From a virus, in IMG/VR virus record IMGVR_UViG_3300049847_000170, positions 1 to 21,575 of that record: a stretch of DNA of 21,575 nt, one strand, 5' to 3'. Shown piece after piece: positions 5,604 to 18,270 of this stretch. A program made the position numbers and the translations under genes. Numbering within the stretch: the stretch's first letter is position 1; each line of letters starts with the position of its first letter. The notes beneath the pieces were generated by a model. That model was not told where the DNA came from. It worked only from the letters and a program-made list of their open reading frames with translations, and made no database searches.

Positions 5604-6452
5604 ATGGCCGTCCAAACTGGCAGTAATGTTCTTCGTAATCCCTTTGCAAATGCTCGTGTAGATGCTCCTAATTTTAATGAGCCTGGCAAACGCTCTCCTA
5701 CTGATGGAAGTCAACAAAGACAGCCTGGGGATCAACAACAGCAAGTTAGATCTCCCACAGATCTTACTCAAAATGATGGTTTCCAGCCTGATTTGGGCAA
5801 AGATAATGGGGACAATAAACCAAAGGTAGATAGCAATGACCCGATGTCTGGACTTGATAACTTATGGGATGATGTTCCTGTCGATCCAAAAGCTCCAGTA
5901 AAGAAAGACTTTAAAGGGTATCTTCCTGATATTGATCCTACTAAATTTGCAGAACAAGTAGGACAAGTAGATTTCGCAGGAAAGATTGACCCTAAGCATT
6001 TTCAAGCTGTTGCTAAAGGTGGGGATGAAGCAATAGCAGCGATGGCGGAAATTGTAAATCAAATAGGAAGAAATACTTTTTCAATGTCATTTAACGCAGC
6101 AAGTAAAATGGCAAATGCGGGTTTTAGTAATGTAGAATCTCGTTTCATGAATGATCTTATCCCAAATAGCATCAATAACAGAATTGTAGATGATACTGTT
6201 ACAAGTGGTAATGAACTTGCAAGAGACCCCAAATACGCTCCAATGTTCCGAAGTGTTAAAGAACAGTTCGCCAGAAAATATCAAAAAGCAACTCCTCAAC
6301 AAATTGCAGAAGCTACGAATCAGTATATGCAACGATTCGTTACTGATGCCACCAAATCTAAAACTCCTGCACAAGATGATAATACTACGCGCCTTAAGAA
6401 AGGCGATGGTAATGCAGATTGGATGGAGTGGATTGCTCCCGAACTGAAATAA
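5604..6452 (+). CDS. putative scaffolding protein
   Basis: The 282-residue product has an N-terminal region (about 1-95) rich in Gln, Asp, Pro and Gly that is likely disordered, then a helical middle and C-terminal half (QVGQVDFAGKIDPKHFQAVA, later VKEQFARKYQKATPQQIAEA) and a charged end. Acidic, Gln-rich, partly disordered proteins between portal and major capsid genes are typical scaffolds, which line the prohead and leave before or during packaging. No protease motif is visible, so the scaffold would leave intact or be cut by something outside the window. AAAGGAA at 5590-5596 supports the start. The assignment is by position and composition, not a recognised domain. Confidence 0.7.
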   Translation: MAVQTGSNVLRNPFANARVDAPNFNEPGKRSPTDGSQQRQPGDQQQQVRSPTDLTQNDGFQPDLGKDNGDNKPKVDSNDPMSGLDNLWDDVPVDPKAPVKKDFKGYLPDIDPTKFAEQVGQVDFAGKIDPKHFQAVAKGGDEAIAAMAEIVNQIGRNTFSMSFNAASKMANAGFSNVESRFMNDLIPNSINNRIVDDTVTSGNELARDPKYAPMFRSVKEQFARKYQKATPQQIAEATNQYMQRFVTDATKSKTPAQDDNTTRLKKGDGNADWMEWIAPELK

Positions 6453-6489
6453 AGCGAACTTTTCTTAATAATTCCATTGGAGAACTCTT

Positions 6490-7239
6490 ATGCTAGTTAG
6501 TCCGACTTACCAAATTGGGCCAATCACTATTCCTATGTATCAAGGGGATCTGTTGAATCTTAATGAAATCGTGCAAACGGTAGCATTGGATAACCCGTAT
6601 ACTTATCTTGGCCCAGAACTTGTTGCTGGTGATATTTTCCGTACTTTGATGACTGCTGGACGTACAGACGTATTGCCTACTGCGCAACAAATTATTAACG
6701 CACTACAAGGTAGCTACAATATTATTACTCCTCCTGGTAATGAATTGTATGGTATTCAACCAACTCGTCAAGTATCTCTTGCTTGGCCTGCTAACTTGGC
6801 TCCGTTCCAACCAGGCTCTACCTTCCGTCGTCGTATTACTGCTACTACTGCATTTGCTTTGACTATGTCAGTTCCGGCAAATAGTGGTATTAGTTTGGCT
6901 GCTGCTCCTTATGACCAAACTATTATTGCAGCTTCTAGCTGGAGGGATTTCTTGTTTCAAATTCTTTCCAGCTCACCGACGCAAATCATTGCAGTTAACC
7001 AGACTAATGCTACCAAACCTTTGACTGTTCCTACTGCTGATTTGGCTAAATGTAATCAAATTACTCCTGGTATGTCAGCTTATGGAACTAACATTGCAGC
7101 AAATTCAAAAGTAGTTAGTGTCAATCGTGATACTGGCATTATCACTTTGGATACTAACGTTACTGCTACTTTGGCACTCAACCCTGTTACCTTTACTCCG
7201 ACCGTGGTTTGTTACGGTATGGGTGGTGGCCCGAAATAA
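6490..7239 (+). CDS. head protein upstream of the major capsid gene, 249 aa
   Basis: The product is beta-rich (Thr, Ala, Pro, Ile). Residues about 187-236 contain a compact beta repeat (ITPGMSAYGTNI, then VVSVNRDTGIITLDTN) of a kind common in phage decoration and fibre proteins. Position directly before the major capsid gene, a GGAG at 6479-6482 and shared codon use suggest an abundant virion component, such as a decoration, head fibre or capsid-stabilising protein. Of its eight Arg codons, seven are CGT and one AGG, a bias shared with the capsid gene but not with terminase or portal. I do not recognise the family. A second capsid protein is the main alternative. Confidence 0.75.
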   Translation: MLVSPTYQIGPITIPMYQGDLLNLNEIVQTVALDNPYTYLGPELVAGDIFRTLMTAGRTDVLPTAQQIINALQGSYNIITPPGNELYGIQPTRQVSLAWPANLAPFQPGSTFRRRITATTAFALTMSVPANSGISLAAAPYDQTIIAASSWRDFLFQILSSSPTQIIAVNQTNATKPLTVPTADLAKCNQITPGMSAYGTNIAANSKVVSVNRDTGIITLDTNVTATLALNPVTFTPTVVCYGMGGGPK

Positions 7240-7283
7240 TTTTTATATAACCATTTCCCAATTACATAAACGGAGATTAAATT

Positions 7284-8480
7284 ATGGCTGCAGGAATTTA
7301 TGGTAGTAATTTTCTAACGCAAGATGCTGCAGTAAAGAGTTTTAGCGGAATGATTGCTCGCTTCATGCCAATGGGCGATGCACCTATTTTTGCAATGACT
7401 TCGATGCTGCGTACTGAAACTGCTTTGCAATTCCAGCATGGCTATTTCAGTAAAACAATGATTTTCCCCTCAGTAACTTTGTCAGCTCAAGCTGCTGCTG
7501 CTGATTCGCTGATTAACGTTACTAGCACTGCTAATATCATTCCAGGCATGCTCCTTCGCCCAGATGGTTCAGCAACTGAAATTATGCTGGTTCTTGGGGT
7601 TGTTGGCACTACGCAACTGCAATGTCAACGTGGTGTAGGTAATACTGCTCCGGCAATTATTCCTATTAGCACTCTTTGTATCCAAGTTGGTAATGCGAAT
7701 GAAGAAGCTTCTCTGCGTCCGCAGGCAGTTTCTATCAGCATGGTTCTGCAAAATAACTACACTCAGATTTTTAGAAATACTTGGGCTGTAAGCGGAACTG
7801 CTGCTGAAACTCGCATGATTGCTGGTGAAGGCAATACTGCTGAAAGCAAAATGGATTGCGCAAGTCTCCATGCTGCTGATATTGAAAAAGGTATTATCTG
7901 GGGCCAGAAGTTCTTGGGAATGAGGAACAATCAACTGTTCCACACGATGGATGGTATTTTGTCTATTACTACCTCCTTTGCCCCAGGTAATATTGTAACT
8001 CTTGGTGCAACTACTTCTTTCACCCAATTGGAAGTTGCAATTGATCCGGTATTTAACGTTCGTACGGATCAAACGATTGGTAATGAAAGGATTTTCTTTG
8101 TAGGCGGTGTTGCTCGCCGTATCCTGAATAACATCTTCCGTCTGAACAGTTCTTATTTCATTGAGAACGGAACTACGGATTATGGTCTTCAGTTCTCTAC
8201 TGCTCGACTCACTCGTGGCACTTTGCGTATTGTGGAGCACCCGCTCTTCAACGCATTTGGTTCCGGTTCTTCGTATGCTAAGATGGGTATTATTGTGGAT
8301 CTTTCCACTTTCAATCTGGCATATCTTGGCAATCGTAAAACCAAAGCCATGGATATTGTCGGTGGGGATGATGGAGTTGACGCAGTTGGTGGTACTCTTA
8401 CCACGGAACTTACTACCGTGCTTAAGAACCCCCAAGCATTTGCACAACTTTTGAATTTCACTGCAGCGGCCATTGGTTAA
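7284..8480 (+). CDS. major capsid protein (SU10 / DUF5309-like)
   Basis: This 398-residue protein is the likely HK97-fold shell subunit. Residues about 65-142 form the inserted beta-hairpin region seen in DUF5309 proteins (INVTSTANIIPGMLLRPDG, then EIMLVLGVVG and QCQRGVG), followed by GNANEEASLRP (137-147). Later come a helical stretch beginning DIEKGIIWGQK and the conserved-looking GNERIFFVGGVARRIL. The order after portal and scaffold, the CGGAG site at 7271-7275 and the terminator immediately after the gene all suit an abundant product. Arg is encoded by CGN 14 times and AGA/AGG three times, pointing to selection for high expression. The family call comes from motif memory; an alignment or structure prediction would settle it. 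Confidence 0.88.
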   Translation: MAAGIYGSNFLTQDAAVKSFSGMIARFMPMGDAPIFAMTSMLRTETALQFQHGYFSKTMIFPSVTLSAQAAAADSLINVTSTANIIPGMLLRPDGSATEIMLVLGVVGTTQLQCQRGVGNTAPAIIPISTLCIQVGNANEEASLRPQAVSISMVLQNNYTQIFRNTWAVSGTAAETRMIAGEGNTAESKMDCASLHAADIEKGIIWGQKFLGMRNNQLFHTMDGILSITTSFAPGNIVTLGATTSFTQLEVAIDPVFNVRTDQTIGNERIFFVGGVARRILNNIFRLNSSYFIENGTTDYGLQFSTARLTRGTLRIVEHPLFNAFGSGSSYAKMGIIVDLSTFNLAYLGNRKTKAMDIVGGDDGVDAVGGTLTTELTTVLKNPQAFAQLLNFTAAAIG

Positions 8481-8495
8481 TTAATTGGCGAAAGT

Positions 8496-8525
8496 TGGCG
8501 GAACTTTAAAACCGCCATTTTTCTT
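8496..8525 (+). terminator. rho-independent terminator after the major capsid gene
   Basis: TGGCGG (8496-8501) pairs with CCGCCA (8512-8517) around a 10-base loop and runs into TTTTTCTT. It lies 16 bases after the capsid stop codon and before the ribosome binding site of the next gene. It would end part of the late transcript and let the head genes outnumber those downstream. Confidence 0.8.
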
Positions 8526-8537
8526 TAGGAGAAATGA

Positions 8538-8732
8538 ATGTCAAATACTATTCTTAAATGCCATCCTCTTATTACTTCAGTGACTATTAATGGTTCTGCT
8601 AAAGTTCCTGATGGAAACAATCTTATTACTGTTCCTTCAGCAGATGCTACAAGCCTCTTTCGCAATTCTATGGCACCTACTGCTTATGGGCCAATAATGC
8701 TACAACAACCTCCAACAGATCCTACAACTTAA
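8538..8732 (+). CDS. small hypothetical protein, 64 aa
   Basis: The ATG at 8538 follows AGGAG at 8527-8531 just beyond the capsid terminator. The product (MSNTILKCHPLITSVTINGS...) is short, beta-prone in its first half (a VTINGSAKVPDG turn) and Pro/Thr-rich at the end (QQPPTDPTT). No membrane segment or known motif is visible. Its position between the capsid gene and other virion candidates suggests a small structural or decoration protein. I do not recognise the family. Confidence 0.65.
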   Translation: MSNTILKCHPLITSVTINGSAKVPDGNNLITVPSADATSLFRNSMAPTAYGPIMLQQPPTDPTT

Positions 8733-8763
8733 TCTTTATAAACTTCCAAAAAGGAATACTAAA

Positions 8764-9324
8764 ATGGCTATTAGTCCTATTCAAGCTGCAGCTCTTGCTA
8801 AAATTCAAGCTGCAAAAAAAGCAGTTGTCTCTGAAGTTAAAAAAGTGGAAGCTACAATTATAGAAGAAGTAAAAGAAGTGGAGCAAATTGCTAAAACTTT
8901 TTATGCTAAAATTGCTCATTCTAGATTTGTGCATGAGGATGGCACAGAAACAGTTTTCCATTTTGGGAAAGCAATTGTTACCAATCCTGCCCACATTAAA
9001 GAGCTTGAGGCTATTTTGCCTCCGAATGGAAATAATCCTAATATTTTTCTTCCTGACTATATCCCTCCTGCTCCCCCAAAACCTGCCCAAAATGCAGTTG
9101 CGGAAGGTGAACTTAAAGTAGCAGATGCAGCCTTATTAGGTAAGGCAGTAGTTTCTGGAGAACTTAATGAGGGAGTTCCAGGAGATCAAACAGGAACAAT
9201 GATTAATGAGTCTACTATTGACGCAAATCTTGTAGCAGCTATGAATGGGATTTCTAATGCTGCTCAAGTAATTGCAGTTTCTGGAGACAAGACTCTTCCA
9301 GGTGCAGCAGGCAGTGCTTCGTAA
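8764..9324 (+). CDS. hypothetical virion-associated protein, 186 aa
   Basis: The start is supported by AAGGAA (8751-8756). Residues about 1-45 are Ala/Lys/Glu-rich and helical, with repeated KKV/KEV steps consistent with a coiled coil. They are followed by a compact charged module (RFVHEDGTETVFHFGKAIV, about 54-72), then a Pro-rich linker (PDYIPPAPPKPAQ) and a Gly/Ala-rich end. The middle pattern, a hairpin with Phe and Gly followed by a Leu-rich helix, resembles small phage head and neck proteins. I cannot name a family. The surrounding genes suggest a minor structural role. Confidence 0.7.
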   Translation: MAISPIQAAALAKIQAAKKAVVSEVKKVEATIIEEVKEVEQIAKTFYAKIAHSRFVHEDGTETVFHFGKAIVTNPAHIKELEAILPPNGNNPNIFLPDYIPPAPPKPAQNAVAEGELKVADAALLGKAVVSGELNEGVPGDQTGTMINESTIDANLVAAMNGISNAAQVIAVSGDKTLPGAAGSAS

Positions 9325-9356
9325 GTTTAGAGTTGTAATTCACTTAGGATAATAAG

Positions 9357-10103
9357 ATGAGCGGCGTCGATACTATTTATACAATGGTACAGGACGATGT
9401 TAAACGTCCAGATAAGCAAGCGCAAATCTGGCGCCGTATTCATCGCTCTATTCTGAAACATCATAGAATGGATAGATGGTTTAATGATCTTATAGAACAA
9501 ATATTTAATTTTGATGTTGCTAACTCCTCAGCATTACAAGGAACACTTCCTGGTGCTCAGGGACTTTTTATGAATTATTTTGGGGCAGCTAATCCTACCC
9601 TAAATGTGCAACAAATAGATACTTCTGAACTTATAAGATTTAGAAAAATTGATTATCTTAGAAAATGGATGACAGTTTCTCCTTATGGTACTGCGATTCT
9701 AGACCCAATTACTGGGCGCCAAGGGACAGTGGAAGGTGGAGATTTAACTGAAAGAAGCCCTTCTTTTACTCAAGATGGTTATGGGTTTGATACACAAGAT
9801 ACTTTTTATGCTTCCGGTGGGATAATTCAAATAAATTCTTCTACCCCATTAAATAAAGTATTTATAGGTTATTTAACAGATCCTCTTGTTAATCTCTCTT
9901 GTGCTACTTTAGCACAATTTCAGACTTATAATTCGTGGATAGCTGATAATTATCCAGGCATGATTGTTTGTGATGTAAAGACTTTCATCTTTAGTGATAT
10001 TGGTAAAAATGAATCAGAAATTAAAGGTGCCAGAGGCGAGTATGAAGAAGAGAAAATGGCTTTTCTGGCAAATAACATAAACCTTTCCACGAAAAAAGGA
10101 TAA
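9357..10103 (+). CDS. putative head-to-tail connector / adaptor protein, 248 aa
   Basis: The N-terminal half begins with a charged helical region (QIWRRIHRSILKHHRMDRWF, about 23-42) followed by DLIEQIFNF. This pattern of two amphipathic helices with basic residues and a trailing acidic one recalls adaptor proteins that dock under the portal. The C-terminal half is beta-rich (ASGGIIQINSSTPLNKVFIG) and ends in a charged helix (GEYEEEKMAFLANNINLSTK). It is the first sizeable gene after the capsid block, where connectors are usually found. AGGAT at 9346-9350 supports the start. A neck or tube protein is the main alternative. Confidence 0.6.
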   Translation: MSGVDTIYTMVQDDVKRPDKQAQIWRRIHRSILKHHRMDRWFNDLIEQIFNFDVANSSALQGTLPGAQGLFMNYFGAANPTLNVQQIDTSELIRFRKIDYLRKWMTVSPYGTAILDPITGRQGTVEGGDLTERSPSFTQDGYGFDTQDTFYASGGIIQINSSTPLNKVFIGYLTDPLVNLSCATLAQFQTYNSWIADNYPGMIVCDVKTFIFSDIGKNESEIKGARGEYEEEKMAFLANNINLSTKKG

Positions 10104-10109
10104 TTTAGC

Positions 10110-11009
10110 ATGACTACTGGAACAAGTGTTTGGGCACAATTAGCAGTAAGTAACGCAATTCAATATGCAGTTCCATTTATTGATGCCAATTCTTTGCAGC
10201 CTACAATAGACTCAGGATCTACTAGTGGTGTTCCTACTGGTGGCGGATTCTGTTATGTTCCTGCTATTACTGGTGCTCCTTTTAGTGGTTGGGGTGCGCT
10301 CCAAGTAGGAACTGCTGGAGACTTTTCTGGTGTAGATGCTATAAATTCCGGTGGCCAAATAGATAGTTATGTGCCCACTACTAATCAGGCTCCTGGCACT
10401 GTAGGTGCTGTTCCTGGCCATAGTGTTAGTGCTTCTCGTGGCACAAGATACATTCCTCTTAATATCCAAAATACAGACCTTCTTGGAGAATATGGAGGTT
10501 ATGGTTATATCAGCCAAGCTGGAGTTTTCTCCTATCAGAAACTTGCTGGCCTAAGTCTTTATGCTGCTGGTGCCAGCGTTACTTATCCTGGTGGAGAAAT
10601 TCGTTTCGGAACGAAAGCAGATGTTATGGGAGTATTCACTGAATGGTTGAAACTTTCAAATATTGGTAATTTGGAACCGATGGTAACTGGAACGAGTAGG
10701 CTAGGGTCTGCGGCCAAGGGGTTTGCAGCTTTAACTTTAGATTATACAAACTCTGCTACAATTGGTGCAGTTACAATTAATAAACCAGCAGGAAGTGGAA
10801 ATATTGCTCTGGGTGCATCAAGTGTAGTGGTTACGAATTCTCTAGTAACTGCAAATTCATTAGTTCTTGCTTGGCTCATGGCAAATGATGGAACTTTGAC
10901 AAGCATTAAAAGTGTAGTTCCTGCTGGAGGCAGTTTTACTGTTACGGGTAATGCTAATGCTACAGGAAATACTAAATTTGGCTTCCTTGTTATTAATACG
11001 GACTCCTAA
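10110..11009 (+). CDS. tail fibre-like protein, 299 aa
   Basis: The product is rich in Gly, Ser, Thr and Ala with almost no charge in its first 130 residues. The middle (EIRFGTKADVMGVFTEWLKL) is followed by LGSAAKGFAALTLDYT, a signature type seen before the C-terminal domain of phage fibre proteins. It ends with a beta-rich module (about 225-299) containing VVVTNSLVTANSLVLAWLM, then SVVPAGGSFTVTGNANATGN and FGFLVIN. This tip-like architecture suggests a receptor-binding or virion-surface fibre. AAAGGA (10095-10100) supports the start. Trimerisation and the receptor are unknown. Confidence 0.7.
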   Translation: MTTGTSVWAQLAVSNAIQYAVPFIDANSLQPTIDSGSTSGVPTGGGFCYVPAITGAPFSGWGALQVGTAGDFSGVDAINSGGQIDSYVPTTNQAPGTVGAVPGHSVSASRGTRYIPLNIQNTDLLGEYGGYGYISQAGVFSYQKLAGLSLYAAGASVTYPGGEIRFGTKADVMGVFTEWLKLSNIGNLEPMVTGTSRLGSAAKGFAALTLDYTNSATIGAVTINKPAGSGNIALGASSVVVTNSLVTANSLVLAWLMANDGTLTSIKSVVPAGGSFTVTGNANATGNTKFGFLVINTDS

Positions 11010-11020
11010 GGAAAACTATT

Positions 11021-11194
11021 ATGTCTTATGTTGTTAATCCTTTAGACCCTACAACTCCCACTAATGCACAAAATGCTTCTCAGGGAGCGGAAGAATTTAG
11101 AGCGCTTAAAGCACTTATTGTCGCTTTAATTGCGTCTGGTTCTGTCACCCCAGATATTGTTCTTTTTCAAAATTCTAGCCTAGGAGGCATTTAA
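11021..11194 (+). CDS. small protein with EFRALK motif, 57 aa
   Basis: This 57-codon gene fills the gap between the fibre-like gene and the next gene. AAGGAAA at 11008-11014 precedes its ATG, and its stop is followed one base later by the next ATG (11196). The product begins MSYVVNPLDPTTPTNAQNAS and contains QGAEEFRALKALIVALIASG (residues about 21-40). An acidic-aromatic EFRALK helix like this recurs in small phage tail-associated proteins, though I cannot name the family. The C-terminal helix is hydrophobic but short for a membrane span. It is probably a fibre accessory or attachment peptide. Confidence 0.75.
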   Translation: MSYVVNPLDPTTPTNAQNASQGAEEFRALKALIVALIASGSVTPDIVLFQNSSLGGI

Positions 11195-11195
11195 T

Positions 11196-11612
11196 ATGTC
11201 CGCAACTTCTGCATTCTTTGTAACTCCCAAAAATATCACTGCTCAATTACTTAATGCCGATGGTATTAATACACTTAAAACAGTTTATACTCCTACCACT
11301 GCGGCAAAACTGGCTTCTTTAATGATTACCAGCACAGAAACTGCGGTTGCTCATGATGTGAATATTTATGTCACTAAGGGCGGAGTAGATTATTTGCTGG
11401 GAACGGTTTCTGTTCCTATCAATTCTGGTTTCACGAGTGGTGCTCCCGCCGTAAATGCTTTCAATAGCACTAACATGCCAGGACTGGCAGTTGATAGTGA
11501 TGGTAATAGATATCTGATGTTGGAAGCTACATCTGTTTTGAAAGCATCTGTTCCAGTAATTGTTACTGCGGCTAAAGCATTGAATTTTGCTGGTTATGGT
11601 GCGGAACTATAA
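11196..11612 (+). CDS. beta-rich virion-like protein, 138 aa
   Basis: AGGAGG at 11182-11187, inside the end of the previous gene, precedes the ATG at 11196. The product is Thr/Ala/Val-rich and predicted by eye as alternating beta strands: KLASLMITSTETAVAHDVNI, then YVTKGGVDYLLGTVSVPINS. It has no Cys, signal peptide or enzymatic motif. Layout and composition recall the 112-residue protein at 16913, suggesting a shared small beta-sandwich fold. It is probably a minor virion or surface protein. Family not recognised. Confidence 0.75.
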   Translation: MSATSAFFVTPKNITAQLLNADGINTLKTVYTPTTAAKLASLMITSTETAVAHDVNIYVTKGGVDYLLGTVSVPINSGFTSGAPAVNAFNSTNMPGLAVDSDGNRYLMLEATSVLKASVPVIVTAAKALNFAGYGAEL

Positions 11613-14601: not shown

Positions 14602-14805
14602 ATGCGACTTTTTATTGATGAAAATGGTAAGATGTATAAAGCGGAGAAGCCTAAAAGTGAAAATGATATGGAGCGAATGAACCCTTCGAAAGAGCAAATT
14701 GATGCTTTGCCTGAAGATGGTTCCGCTCTTACTCTTTTTCAATATGCTGAAGCTATGCGTCTTATGGATACTGGTGTAGAGGAGATTATAAATGAAATCG
14801 CTTAA
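14602..14805 (+). CDS. small acidic protein, 67 aa
   Basis: The gene begins six bases after GAGGTG (14591-14596). The product, MRLFIDENGKMYKAEKPKSE..., is acidic and helical in its second half (ALTLFQYAEAMRLMDTGVEE). It has no signal peptide or membrane segment. Its last 14 bases overlap the next gene, whose ribosome binding site is inside it, so the two are probably translated together. The function is unknown; a chaperone or accessory for the neighbouring exported protein is a guess from position. Confidence 0.75.
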   Translation: MRLFIDENGKMYKAEKPKSENDMERMNPSKEQIDALPEDGSALTLFQYAEAMRLMDTGVEEIINEIA

Positions 14806-15247
14806 GTTAATCCTTGCAGGACTTCTTCTTTCTGCCAGTATCTGTTTTGGCCAAGGGACAAATAATGTCCGAGATCCTTGCCAAACACCTAATGCAACTA
14901 AGCAAAGTGTTGCAATCAATATTTCTACAGCAGTAACTACTCAATTAGTTGCGCTTTCGGGAACTACTAGCATTTATGTTTGTGGATTTTCCCTCACAAT
15001 TAGTCAAGTAATAACTACCGCAAATACTATCCAGTTTGAGTATGGCACGGGAGCTTTGTGTGCAACGGGCACTACTGTACTTACAGGATTGTTTGGGGCA
15101 GGAGGGGTAACTGCTGGAGCTCCGTTAGTAATTTCTGCATCCGGCGCCAATCTTTTTACAGCTCCAGCAGGAAATGCTCTTTGTGCTGTTACTGTAATTG
15201 GAGCAACTGGTTCCTTTCAAGGTGTTCTTACTTATATTCAACAATAA
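14792..15247 (+). CDS. exported four-cysteine beta-rich protein with signal peptide, 151 aa
   Basis: Residues 1-20 form a textbook signal peptide: two Lys near the start, a hydrophobic core (LILAGLLLSASIC) and a likely cleavage near CFG/QG. The residues before Cys18 (SASIC) do not make a good lipobox, so simple secretion is favoured over a lipoprotein. The mature part is Thr/Gly/Ala-rich and beta-rich, with four Cys (30, 64, 90, 131), an even number compatible with periplasmic disulfides. GAGGAG (14779-14784) supports the ATG, which overlaps the previous gene. A signal peptide is out of place in a run of virion genes: it may be secreted or periplasmic and act in superinfection exclusion, lysis or host modification. 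The other option is a virion protein with a hydrophobic N-terminus. Family not recognised with certainty. Confidence 0.8.
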   Translation: MKSLKLILAGLLLSASICFGQGTNNVRDPCQTPNATKQSVAINISTAVTTQLVALSGTTSIYVCGFSLTISQVITTANTIQFEYGTGALCATGTTVLTGLFGAGGVTAGAPLVISASGANLFTAPAGNALCAVTVIGATGSFQGVLTYIQQ

Positions 15248-15249
15248 CT

Positions 15250-15504
15250 ATGGAAATCCCTCAGGATTTTACAAAACTAATTCAGAGTGTAACTCAGGAT
15301 ATGGATCCTGGGACTATTGTTATTATGAAACTTTTTGCTGATCCTGCTTCTACAGAAAAGAAATTGGAAGAAGACAGTATTAATGATCCTCTAAATCTTA
15401 ATCCTAACCCTTTTAAATATAGTAATAACAGTTTAGGAGGTGGTGCAGGGGGAGGAACTGGTAGTTCTGCTGGAGCTATTCTTGCAGGGAATCCGAATCA
15501 ATAA
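15250..15504 (+). CDS. small protein with Gly-rich C-terminus, 84 aa
   Basis: The ATG at 15250 comes two bases after the stop of the exported protein and lacks a clear ribosome binding site, so coupling is likely; an in-frame upstream start at 15058 would lie inside the previous gene and is rejected. The product starts MEIPQDFTKLIQSVTQDMDP, is acidic in the middle, and ends in a flexible Gly/Ser tail (SLGGGAGGGTGSSAGAILAG). The TAA overlaps the next ATG by one base (TAATG). Position next to the collagen-like fibre gene suggests a linker or accessory protein. Function unknown. Confidence 0.65.
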   Translation: MEIPQDFTKLIQSVTQDMDPGTIVIMKLFADPASTEKKLEEDSINDPLNLNPNPFKYSNNSLGGGAGGGTGSSAGAILAGNPNQ

Positions 15505-16211
15505 TGGCTAAAATATCTTATTATCCAGATGGAACTTTAATTGCAGATACTGACTTGTTCATTGTAGAACGAGTTGATGGAAATAATTATACATTTACTG
15601 GGGCAGAATTAAAAGCTCAGCTTGGTGGAGGCAGTCCAGGAAAAGATGGACTTACTGTTTTTGCTAAAGATGGAGACGATGGCTTAGATGCTTTTCCTGT
15701 CCCTGGGGAAAGAGGAACAACAGGGCTTACTGGAAATACTGGGGCAGATGGAGCAGTTCTTTTACTTACTGGCGATGCTGGAGATGATGCTCAAGTAATT
15801 CCTGGCGTTGATGGTAAAGCTGGCCAAGATGGATTAGTTATATTTCTTCCTGCCCAAGATGGTGAAGATGCTATTTATCCTTTGCCAGGGAATGATGGTT
15901 CAGCAGGTGTGCAAGGAGCCAGAGGTCAAGCAGCTATTTCTCCAATTTTTGGTCAAGTATCTACAAATATTGCTAGACCAAAAAGAGCAGGAACTTTATA
16001 TCTTGAGCCAGTAAACGGATTTCCTCAAAATCAAATAGGGAAACCAGTATTTGTTCAACAAGCCCCAAGTTCTAACGATGAAGAAGAATGTGTCCAACTT
16101 CATTGTGTTGGCGAAATATTTAATTCTAGGCAATTACGAATTCGTTGGATGAGTATACAAAATAGACTTGTTCGTGGCAAGAAAACTTTTAATTATTTAA
16201 TACCTGCATAA
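15504..16211 (+). CDS. collagen-like fibre protein, 235 aa
   Basis: After an N-terminal domain (about 1-42), residues about 43-142 are rich in G-X-Y-type triplets with interruptions (SPGKDGLTVFAKDGDDGLDA, VPGERGTTGLTGNTGADG, GNDGSAGVQGARGQ). Three imperfect units of about 30 residues can be seen: roughly 46-75, 82-108 and 109-138. Each carries DG or DA turns and a VF/LL/IF hydrophobic pair. The C-terminal domain (about 150-235) contains NGFPQNQIGKPVFVQQ and two Cys near ECVQLHCVG. Collagen-like segments make stiff trimeric stalks in phage fibres. It starts by TAATG overlap with the previous gene. A fibre or fibre-attachment function is likely. Confidence 0.8.
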   Translation: MAKISYYPDGTLIADTDLFIVERVDGNNYTFTGAELKAQLGGGSPGKDGLTVFAKDGDDGLDAFPVPGERGTTGLTGNTGADGAVLLLTGDAGDDAQVIPGVDGKAGQDGLVIFLPAQDGEDAIYPLPGNDGSAGVQGARGQAAISPIFGQVSTNIARPKRAGTLYLEPVNGFPQNQIGKPVFVQQAPSSNDEEECVQLHCVGEIFNSRQLRIRWMSIQNRLVRGKKTFNYLIPA

Positions 16212-16912: not shown

Positions 16913-17251
16913 ATGGCAGGTGTAACTAAACGTCTAGCTGGCCCAGTTGCATTAGCTAATGCGGCAGGTAATATTTATAATCAGGGTTCTGCTCTTATTT
17001 ATACGGTTATTCGACATATCTCTATTGTAAATAAGACTGCAGCTTCTCATAATTTTTCCCTCTTCGTAGGTGCAACTGGAGGTAGTGCAGCAGGAACTGA
17101 AGTAGTAGGTTCCGCAAAAGTAATCGCTGCTAATGACGTGTTTAACTGGTATGGAATGCTTAGATTAGATTCTACTGATTTTCTTACAGGACTTGCTGAT
17201 GCTGCTGCGTCCTTAAGTATTACAGTAGAAGGCGACATTAACGTAATTTAA
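16913..17251 (+). CDS. beta-sandwich-like virion protein, 112 aa
   Basis: TAGGAG (16900-16905) precedes the start. The protein is a single small domain: TVIRHISIVNKTAASHNFSL, then FVGATGGSAAGTEVVGSAKV, then NDVFNWYGMLRLDSTDFLTG, ending in TVEGDINVI. The layout of strands linked by small residues, with a WYG turn, is that of a small beta sandwich. The first half resembles the 138-residue protein at 11196 in pattern (hydrophobic strand, Thr/Ala loop, then a His/Asn-Phe/Val strand). A minor virion or decoration role is likely. Family name not assigned. Confidence 0.75.
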   Translation: MAGVTKRLAGPVALANAAGNIYNQGSALIYTVIRHISIVNKTAASHNFSLFVGATGGSAAGTEVVGSAKVIAANDVFNWYGMLRLDSTDFLTGLADAAASLSITVEGDINVI

Positions 17252-17267
17252 TATTAAGGAGATGATT

Positions 17268-17552
17268 GTGGCAGAACCTCAAGATAATTCATTGGAAGTT
17301 AATAGTCCCTGGGGCAAAATAAAAACTAGTGGGTCTATCACATTACTTGTAATTATTTTTGGGGCTGCTGGAATCTTTGGTTGGAATAAATTACAAGCAC
17401 ATGATGAAACAAGTAATAGCCATTTAAGTAAAATTTTAGAAGCACAGGAAGCCACTAATTATATATTAACTCTCAGTCAAGATGATAGAAATAAACTTCA
17501 ATTGACTAAGCCAAAAGCAGTTAGGGAGATGGAACGGAGGGACAATAGATGA
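17268..17552 (+). CDS. single-span membrane protein, holin or spanin candidate, 94 aa
   Basis: The GTG at 17268 is preferred as start: AAGGAG (17256-17261) is six bases upstream, whereas the ATG at 17262 touches that site directly. The product has an N-terminal hydrophilic section, one transmembrane helix at about residues 22-40 (SITLLVIIFGAAGIFGW) and a charged helical tail (SHLSKILEAQEATNYILTLS). Position just before an endolysin, with an ATGA overlap, argues for lysis. One span with a short cytoplasmic N-terminus and a coiled-coil-like outer part fits an inner-membrane spanin or an unusual holin; neither has a diagnostic motif here. Confidence 0.7.
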   Translation: MAEPQDNSLEVNSPWGKIKTSGSITLLVIIFGAAGIFGWNKLQAHDETSNSHLSKILEAQEATNYILTLSQDDRNKLQLTKPKAVREMERRDNR

Positions 17553-17890
17553 GTATTCTTCTTGATAAACAGCATCAATTTTCTAGGATGCTCCCAAAAC
17601 TTCTCCAATGGTGTTTTGATAATGGTTATGAAGTTACTGTTGGAGAAGTGCTTAGAGGTAAAAAACAAGCTGAAGCTAATGCTGCCGCTGGCATTGGTAT
17701 TGCGAATTCTAATCATTTGCGCTCTCTTGCTATTGACCTTAGTCTCTTTAAGGATGGCATATATTTGGATAAATCCGAATCATATTTGCCCGCTGGAAAA
17801 TATTGGGAATCTCTTGGAGGCTGTTGGGGTGGCAGGTTTCATAATCCTGATGGGGATCATTTTTCGCTAGAGTACAAGGGAGTGAGATAA
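17549..17890 (+). CDS. endolysin, M15-family peptidase
   Basis: The 113-residue product is a small metallopeptidase of the M15 family, which cuts the peptide stems of peptidoglycan. The zinc-ligand signatures are SNHLRSLAIDL (54-64: His56 and Asp63) and DGDHFSLE (101-108: His104, with Asp101 three residues before as the likely catalytic residue). The Ser-x-His-x(3)-x-Ala-x-Asp pattern keeps the family ligands, though Ser60 sits where Gly is common. No signal peptide is present, so release would need a holin or pinholin, consistent with the membrane protein that overlaps its start (ATGA). Length is usual for phage M15 endolysins (about 110-150). The exact bond cut (D-Ala or L-Ala-D-Glu) cannot be read. 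Confidence 0.88.
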   Translation: MSILLDKQHQFSRMLPKLLQWCFDNGYEVTVGEVLRGKKQAEANAAAGIGIANSNHLRSLAIDLSLFKDGIYLDKSESYLPAGKYWESLGGCWGGRFHNPDGDHFSLEYKGVR

Positions 17891-18270
17891 TGAAGTTTAC
17901 TATTTGCTTTACTTCTCCTTTAAGAGTGCAAGAAATTACTAATGGTCAATGGGTACTTACGGATGATTTTGTCGTTACTATTGATGATAAAACAGTGTCC
18001 GTCCCCAAGGGTTTTATAACTGATTTTGCCTCTGTTCCCAGATTACCTTTTGCTTATATGATGTTTGGTGGAATTGGCAATCGTCCAGCAGTGCTTCATG
18101 ATTATCTTTATTCTATTGGTGGAGATTCTAAAGCTAAAGAATTTGCAGATAATGTTCTCTATTATGGCATAATGGCTGATGGAGATTCTAAGTGGAAAGC
18201 GAAAGCAATGTATACAGGTGTAAGACTATTTGGTGGAAAATTCTGGAAATCCAAATCGGAGAATAAATAA
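17890..18270 (+). CDS. DUF1353 family protein, 126 aa
   Basis: Residues 41-51 (GFITDFASVPR) and 70-74 (HDYLY) are the two conserved signatures of DUF1353, a family of small phage proteins often found beside lysis or tail genes. The invariant-looking His and Asp suggest metal binding or hydrolysis, though the activity is not established. The start overlaps the endolysin stop as TAATG, and a GGGAG lies just upstream. The same kind of overlap (TAATG) joins it to the next gene. It may assist lysis or peptidoglycan handling, by position only. Confidence 0.85.
   Translation: MKFTICFTSPLRVQEITNGQWVLTDDFVVTIDDKTVSVPKGFITDFASVPRLPFAYMMFGGIGNRPAVLHDYLYSIGGDSKAKEFADNVLYYGIMADGDSKWKAKAMYTGVRLFGGKFWKSKSENK

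Follow-up and report, generated by a model that had tools for sequence, protein, structure and literature searches.

We have identified, among the late genes of a short-tailed phage, a small gene whose product is strongly supported, by comparison with its relatives, as an exported and disulfide-bonded protein. Its domain, here called the knob, appears to belong to a new viral family: as judged from their sequences, the members are always exported, always carry the domain at the C-terminus, and are scattered through the late genes of unrelated tailed phages. The knob is hypothesized to be an accessory exported protein that binds the host envelope or surface, with receptor masking as the likeliest benefit, a reading to which we assign a probability of roughly 40%.

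The window, that is, the whole stretch of DNA analysed here, is a virus contig of 21,575 bases with genes for a terminase (phrog_38), a portal (phrog_15554) and a major head protein (phrog_1328). Compared by terminase, portal and capsid, the cultured phages closest to it are EBPR podovirus 3, Polaromonas phage Tiera, Aeromonas phage P5 and the PaMx41/PaP2 group (~ 28-36% identity). All are short-tailed, and the window phage is read as a distant short-tailed relative of Pseudomonas phage PaMx41. The knob gene (14792..15247, + strand) is an open reading frame of 151 codons with an ATG start and an AGAGGAG Shine-Dalgarno sequence 6 nt 5′ of it, and encodes 151 aa; these are exactly the coordinates given in an earlier, sequence-only reading of the DNA. 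It lies among late genes, between tail/fibre genes and lysis genes (M15 peptidase at 17549), ~ 2 kb before the lysis cassette. An upstream gene for an acidic 67-aa protein (14602..14805, + strand), with no PHROG and no significant Pfam family, overlaps the start of the knob gene by 14 nt, and a gene for an 84-aa protein with a Gly-rich tail (15250..15504, + strand), with no family in PHROG or Pfam, begins 2 nt past its stop. This spacing is as noted in the earlier reading, and the overlap with the upstream gene suggests translational coupling. Next is a gene for a collagen-like fibre protein (15504..16211, + strand) that has PHROG tail-fibre matches and no signal peptide, its product being a candidate for an ordinary, non-exported fibre of the window phage.

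Two other regions of the window deserve mention. Positions 17262-18270 form a probable lysis cassette consisting of a one-pass membrane protein, an M15 peptidase (PF13539) and a DUF1353 protein. Positions 16913-17251 encode a beta-rich protein of 112 aa whose single relative, at 44% identity, comes from Xanthomonas phage PBR31 and is annotated there as an acetyltransferase, a doubtful label for such a short beta protein; its single-sequence model was poor (pLDDT 58) and was left out of the analysis. This gene and those at 10110, 11196 and 11615 were considered as non-exported cousins of the knob within the window and rejected, as none had profile similarity to it. The corresponding region of three near cultured relatives contained no equivalent domain protein with a signal peptide, the heuristic signal matches there being one spanin, one one-pass membrane protein and one spurious call.

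Every signal-peptide call in this work comes from a home-made heuristic, supplemented by inspection by eye. The N-terminus of the knob protein, MKSLKLILAGLLLSASICFGQG, has a charged n-region followed by an uncharged, leucine-rich h-region, and residues 1-20 (14792..14851, + strand) constitute a predicted Sec signal peptide, in agreement with the sequence-only reading. Cleavage probably occurs after Gly20 at CFG|Q, which matches AFG|Q in relative L002; the heuristic favored A15|S16 instead, so the exact site is not settled. A signal peptide was found at the start of all 57 non-redundant relatives (~ 50 by script and the rest by eye, with by-eye signals at internal start codons in L022, L027, L034, L038, L046, L050 and L051), and it is common to all of them even though their middle parts share little. 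The motif [small]-x-[A/G]-Q occurs within residues 15-42 of 41 of the 57, as compared to 15.2 expected in shuffles (maximum 26 in 1000), and further downstream in only six. Under strict settings, the heuristic marked 41 of 47 domain genes versus 60 of 566 other + strand open reading frames on the same contigs; among adjoining genes, it marked 5 of 46 preceding and 16 of 44 following ones. Exported proteins had been described as uncommon among late genes, which holds for the average gene (~ 11% by a permissive heuristic) but not for this neighborhood, given how often the next downstream gene bears a signal. Conservation of the n-, h- and c-regions and of the small-x-small site in homologues, as called by heuristic and by eye, marks the protein as a predicted Sec-exported protein of the signal peptidase I type. 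A lipoprotein processed by signal peptidase II was rejected, as the lipobox [LVI][ASTVI][GAS]C is absent; C18, the only cysteine near the site, has Ile17 at −1, and L002 has no cysteine near its cleavage site.

The window protein has five cysteines, namely C18 in the signal peptide and, as previously noted, four in the mature part: Cys30 (14879..14881), Cys64 (14981..14983), Cys90 (15059..15061) and Cys131 (15182..15184), all on the + strand. Cys90 and Cys131 are invariant in 52 of 52 non-redundant domains. Cys30 and Cys64 are present or absent jointly in 51 of the 52 (both in 34, neither in 17), the one exception being L062, which has a further cysteine upstream. The first cysteine of this pair can occupy either of two sites six columns apart, always alongside its partner. 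Fisher's exact test for paired occurrence gave p = 8e-13, a value inflated by the kinship among the sequences. When the cysteine columns were left out of tree building, approximately three changes of paired state were found, one of them on well-supported branches, and both cysteines were concordant each time. This is the pattern that two disulfides, 30-64 and 90-131, would give. The expectation that homologues would keep both signal peptide and cysteines is borne out, with one refinement: the 90-131 pair is invariant, and one subfamily lacks both members of the 30-64 pair. Given an export signal and two likely disulfides, the knob protein probably acts outside the cytoplasm of its bacterial host.

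The window protein had no Pfam, PHROG or PDB sequence match, and 47 family members gave at most single stray matches to Pfam and PHROG. A search of IMG/VR contigs yielded two relatives at first and 60 with a four-sequence alignment; a second alignment returned the same 60-relative set with longer flanks. Annotated phages carrying the knob are the complete podovirus genome MW202554 and two Synechococcus phages, Ssp-JY42 and Yong-M4-211 (relative XAI96956.1), whose members share 63% identity with the two-cysteine subfamily. Two pattern scans of 84,980 prokaryotic species genomes produced 49 and 171 pattern matches, from which no relative was confirmed, and a plasmid scan found none. Since the scans of prokaryotes relied on a small number of peptide patterns, they may have overlooked rare or diverged copies, and it is within these limits that a prokaryotic origin was rejected. 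As far as scanned, the family is restricted to viruses. In the 35 records that were profile-searched, the knob occurs once each, except in one contig with two copies (G034, the contig of L062 and L109; 4201-4557 and 7531-7887), the first of which is the one with the odd cysteine pattern. A terminase family was matched in 20 of the 35 records, which are therefore tailed phages, and a PHROG that we take to be an integrase was matched in three, most contigs having none. The domain is C-terminal in every relative, in proteins of ~ 132 to 1163 residues. In short members it directly follows the signal peptide, and in long members it caps low-complexity, fibre-like repeats; the C-terminus is the usual place of a fibre tip. 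No description of the family was found in the open-access literature searched.

AlphaFold2, given the mature protein and 46 relatives, produced a confident, all-beta model (mean pLDDT 87, pTM 0.82), consistent with the beta-rich domain proposed earlier. From its structural matches, we read the predicted fold as a beta-sandwich of jelly-roll type, which gives no function. Foldseek matches to the PDB were weak (E about 1e-3), led by a chain of the cyanophage Pam1 cement protein and including the Sf6 tail-needle knob, IBDV VP2 and the KHP40 cement protein. Further weak fold matches were to CBM36 modules and to a TNF-like lectin (PLTL). A second aligner gave Z values of up to 8.3, which is the usual background range for unrelated beta-sandwiches, with matches to the FBNSV capsid, an archaeal-virus turret protein, KHP40/KHP30 cement proteins (7.8, over 109 residues for KHP40) and the Bdellovibrio Bd2133 fibre tip (6.3 over 106 residues). 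Predicted phage proteins of unknown function match better, with a best TM-score of 0.71.

Gene order around the knob varies between relatives. The knob gene is followed by scaffold and major head protein genes in L086 (phrog_8865 and phrog_283), by a major head protein gene of another family in L093 (phrog_334), by a portal gene in L014 (phrog_146), by a head maturation protease gene in L091 (phrog_530) and by a tail-type gene in L063. Because it lies beside different capsid families (phrog_283, phrog_334 and, in the window, phrog_1328), its occurrence does not depend on a single type of capsid, which is what one would expect if it were an accessory gene directed at the host. Its position relative to lysis genes is likewise not conserved.

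Several relatives have exported genes downstream of the knob. In L066, L082, L087, L090, L099 and L101 these encode long exported proteins (300-1100 aa), mostly without a Pfam family; one is a BNR_4 (sialidase-type) protein and one is apiosidase-like with a collagen-binding-type domain. In MW202554.1 (L114), four probably exported genes at 5835-11335 come right after the portal gene and encode, in order, a knob-tipped 846-aa protein, a 197-aa exported protein, a ConA-like lectin/glucanase and an endopolygalacturonase. The last has a likely GTG start at 9737, with AGGAG before it, that adds a signal missed by the annotation; the signals of the lectin and the endopolygalacturonase were read by eye and were unmarked by the heuristic. 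Some fibre repeats of the knob-tipped protein in this genome recur in L118, an ordinary 690-aa protein that comes from a different phage and has no signal, and exported and non-exported forms therefore share building blocks. A further observation concerns an LLLGxG motif, which stands right behind the signal peptide in some exported phage genes and at the extreme C-terminus in others (RMLLLGVGP, RSLLGVGL); it was seen in genes downstream of the knob in L031, L049 and L062, at 8949-9740 of L114 and in the next gene of L106.

From these computed features (signal peptide, paired cysteines, fold, restriction to viruses as scanned, C-terminal position, and spread over phage types and positions), we infer actual export, disulfide pairing, any oligomer, the target and the benefit. 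The knob would be the product of an accessory, moron-like late gene, made late in infection. Its precursor would pass through the host Sec translocon and be cleaved, and the mature protein would fold in the periplasm into a disulfide-stabilized beta-sandwich of jelly-roll type. It may then act as a binding module in the periplasm, on the cell surface or in the medium, alone in the window phage and, in other phages, at the tip of long exported proteins that resemble fibres. The likeliest target would be a glycan on the surface of the infected cell or a component of its envelope; the bound knob could hide receptors, which would protect against superinfection and keep progeny from being lost on debris. 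A surface, superinfection-exclusion or envelope-modifying role, as raised in the sequence-only reading, is possible.

Exported phage proteins that act at the envelope are a known kind, with roles in superinfection exclusion and lysogenic conversion; examples are Ltp of TP-J34 and HK97 gp15, a membrane protein (PMC11437467). The knob gene would resemble such genes as an accessory inserted among phage genes, absent from close relatives and acting at the envelope. In contrast to Ltp and HK97 gp15, which are lipoproteins or membrane proteins and typically prophage-expressed, the knob is predicted to be a soluble-type, disulfide-bonded beta-sandwich domain and is found in the late regions of contigs that mostly have no integrase match. 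The mosaic adhesive trimer (MAT) fibres of Bdellovibrio are also Sec-exported and phage-like, are encoded by bacterial genes and have a conserved ~ 130 aa domain after the signal, followed by a beta-helical fibre (PMC10769870). They share with the knob family a Sec-type signal before a phage-like fibre architecture and a C-terminal tip, that of Bd2133 being a beta-sandwich. The knob family, however, is phage-encoded and, judged by description, does not have the described MAT layout, which the single-domain window protein cannot have. The similarity to the Bd2133 tip was set aside as a sign of kinship, as its Z of 6.3 is at background level, and we claim an analogy and no common descent.

The variable position of the gene, the diversity of capsid types and its absence from near relatives favor a host-acting accessory protein over a core virion part. 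In line with this, fibre candidates of the ordinary, non-exported sort are present in the window phage as well, and the downstream neighbors in relatives are often exported too, some of them being of glycan type. Position within head and tail modules and a cement-like fold favor a virion part instead. The knob or knob-tipped fibre might be exported, oxidized in the periplasm, and attached to completed virions as lysis proceeds or afterwards, serving in decoration or adhesion; we consider this somewhat unlikely. In L086 and L093 the gene has scaffold and major capsid genes as neighbors, the repeats shared with the signal-less protein of L118 belong to an ordinary phage protein, and the nearest solved folds, phage cement proteins and a tail-needle knob, point equally to a virion role. 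The trimeric cement proteins of KHP40/KHP30 and cyanophage Pam1 are single jelly-roll-like domains of similar length, but the match (Z 7.8 for KHP40/KHP30) is weak and no kinship was detectable by family or PDB sequence search. The Sf6/HS1 tail-needle knob is likewise a C-terminal phage beta knob and among the top Foldseek PDB matches, but TM-scores are only about 0.4, and it is a virion part that is not known to be exported. The fold matches are weak overall, the highest Z of 8.3 lying within the range of unrelated beta-sandwiches, and the phages that carry the domain differ in capsid family. Because tailed phages put their particles together in the cytoplasm, a piece that has been exported would miss assembly until lysis.

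The exported neighbors raise the prospect, in our view unlikely, that the knob is a secreted glycan-binding partner that, together with glycan-active proteins, weakens the polymers of capsule, biofilm or cell wall surrounding the lysing cell, easing the spread of progeny. BNR_4, apiosidase-like plus collagen-binding, ConA-like lectin/glucanase and endopolygalacturonase proteins in relatives, and the lectin and CBM36 modules among the fold matches, are consistent with this, but most neighbors have no family, no exported enzyme lies beside the knob gene in the window, and no catalytic or sugar-binding residues were identified in the knob. Longer hydrophobic stretches or poor cleavage sites in L005, L008, L016, L021 and L039 would suit an uncleaved N-terminal segment that tethers the knob to the inner membrane, for example as an envelope-stress or lysis-timing factor, as would the short distance to the lysis cassette in the window. 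This is quite improbable given the clean small-x-Ala|Gln site after the hydrophobic stretch in most relatives (41 of 57 versus 15 expected) and the lack of a conserved position relative to lysis genes. Finally, an ordinary cytoplasmic structural protein with a signal-like N-terminus and unpaired cysteines would agree with the position among structural genes and with nothing else. Such a coincidence, which we regard as extremely improbable, is already contradicted by the family comparison, in which every relative has a signal, cysteine pairs are kept or lost jointly, and one pair is invariant in 52 of 52 domains.

Late phage genes are commonly assumed to encode virion parts. In the present case, a family amid the head and tail genes of phages with different heads carries export signals and paired cysteines, and automatic annotation would label its long members tail fibres. 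We tentatively suggest a "secreted fibre" programme, in which many environmental tailed phages would use the host Sec pathway to export disulfide-bonded knobs, knob-tipped fibres and glycan-active proteins late in infection, to work outside the cell apart from the virion; the knob would be a viral domain family of its own and the window gene its minimal, knob-only form. If these proteins are exported, receptor-binding predictions from metagenomes would be partly wrong, and phages would alter the exterior of the dying cell to a much greater degree than has been assumed.
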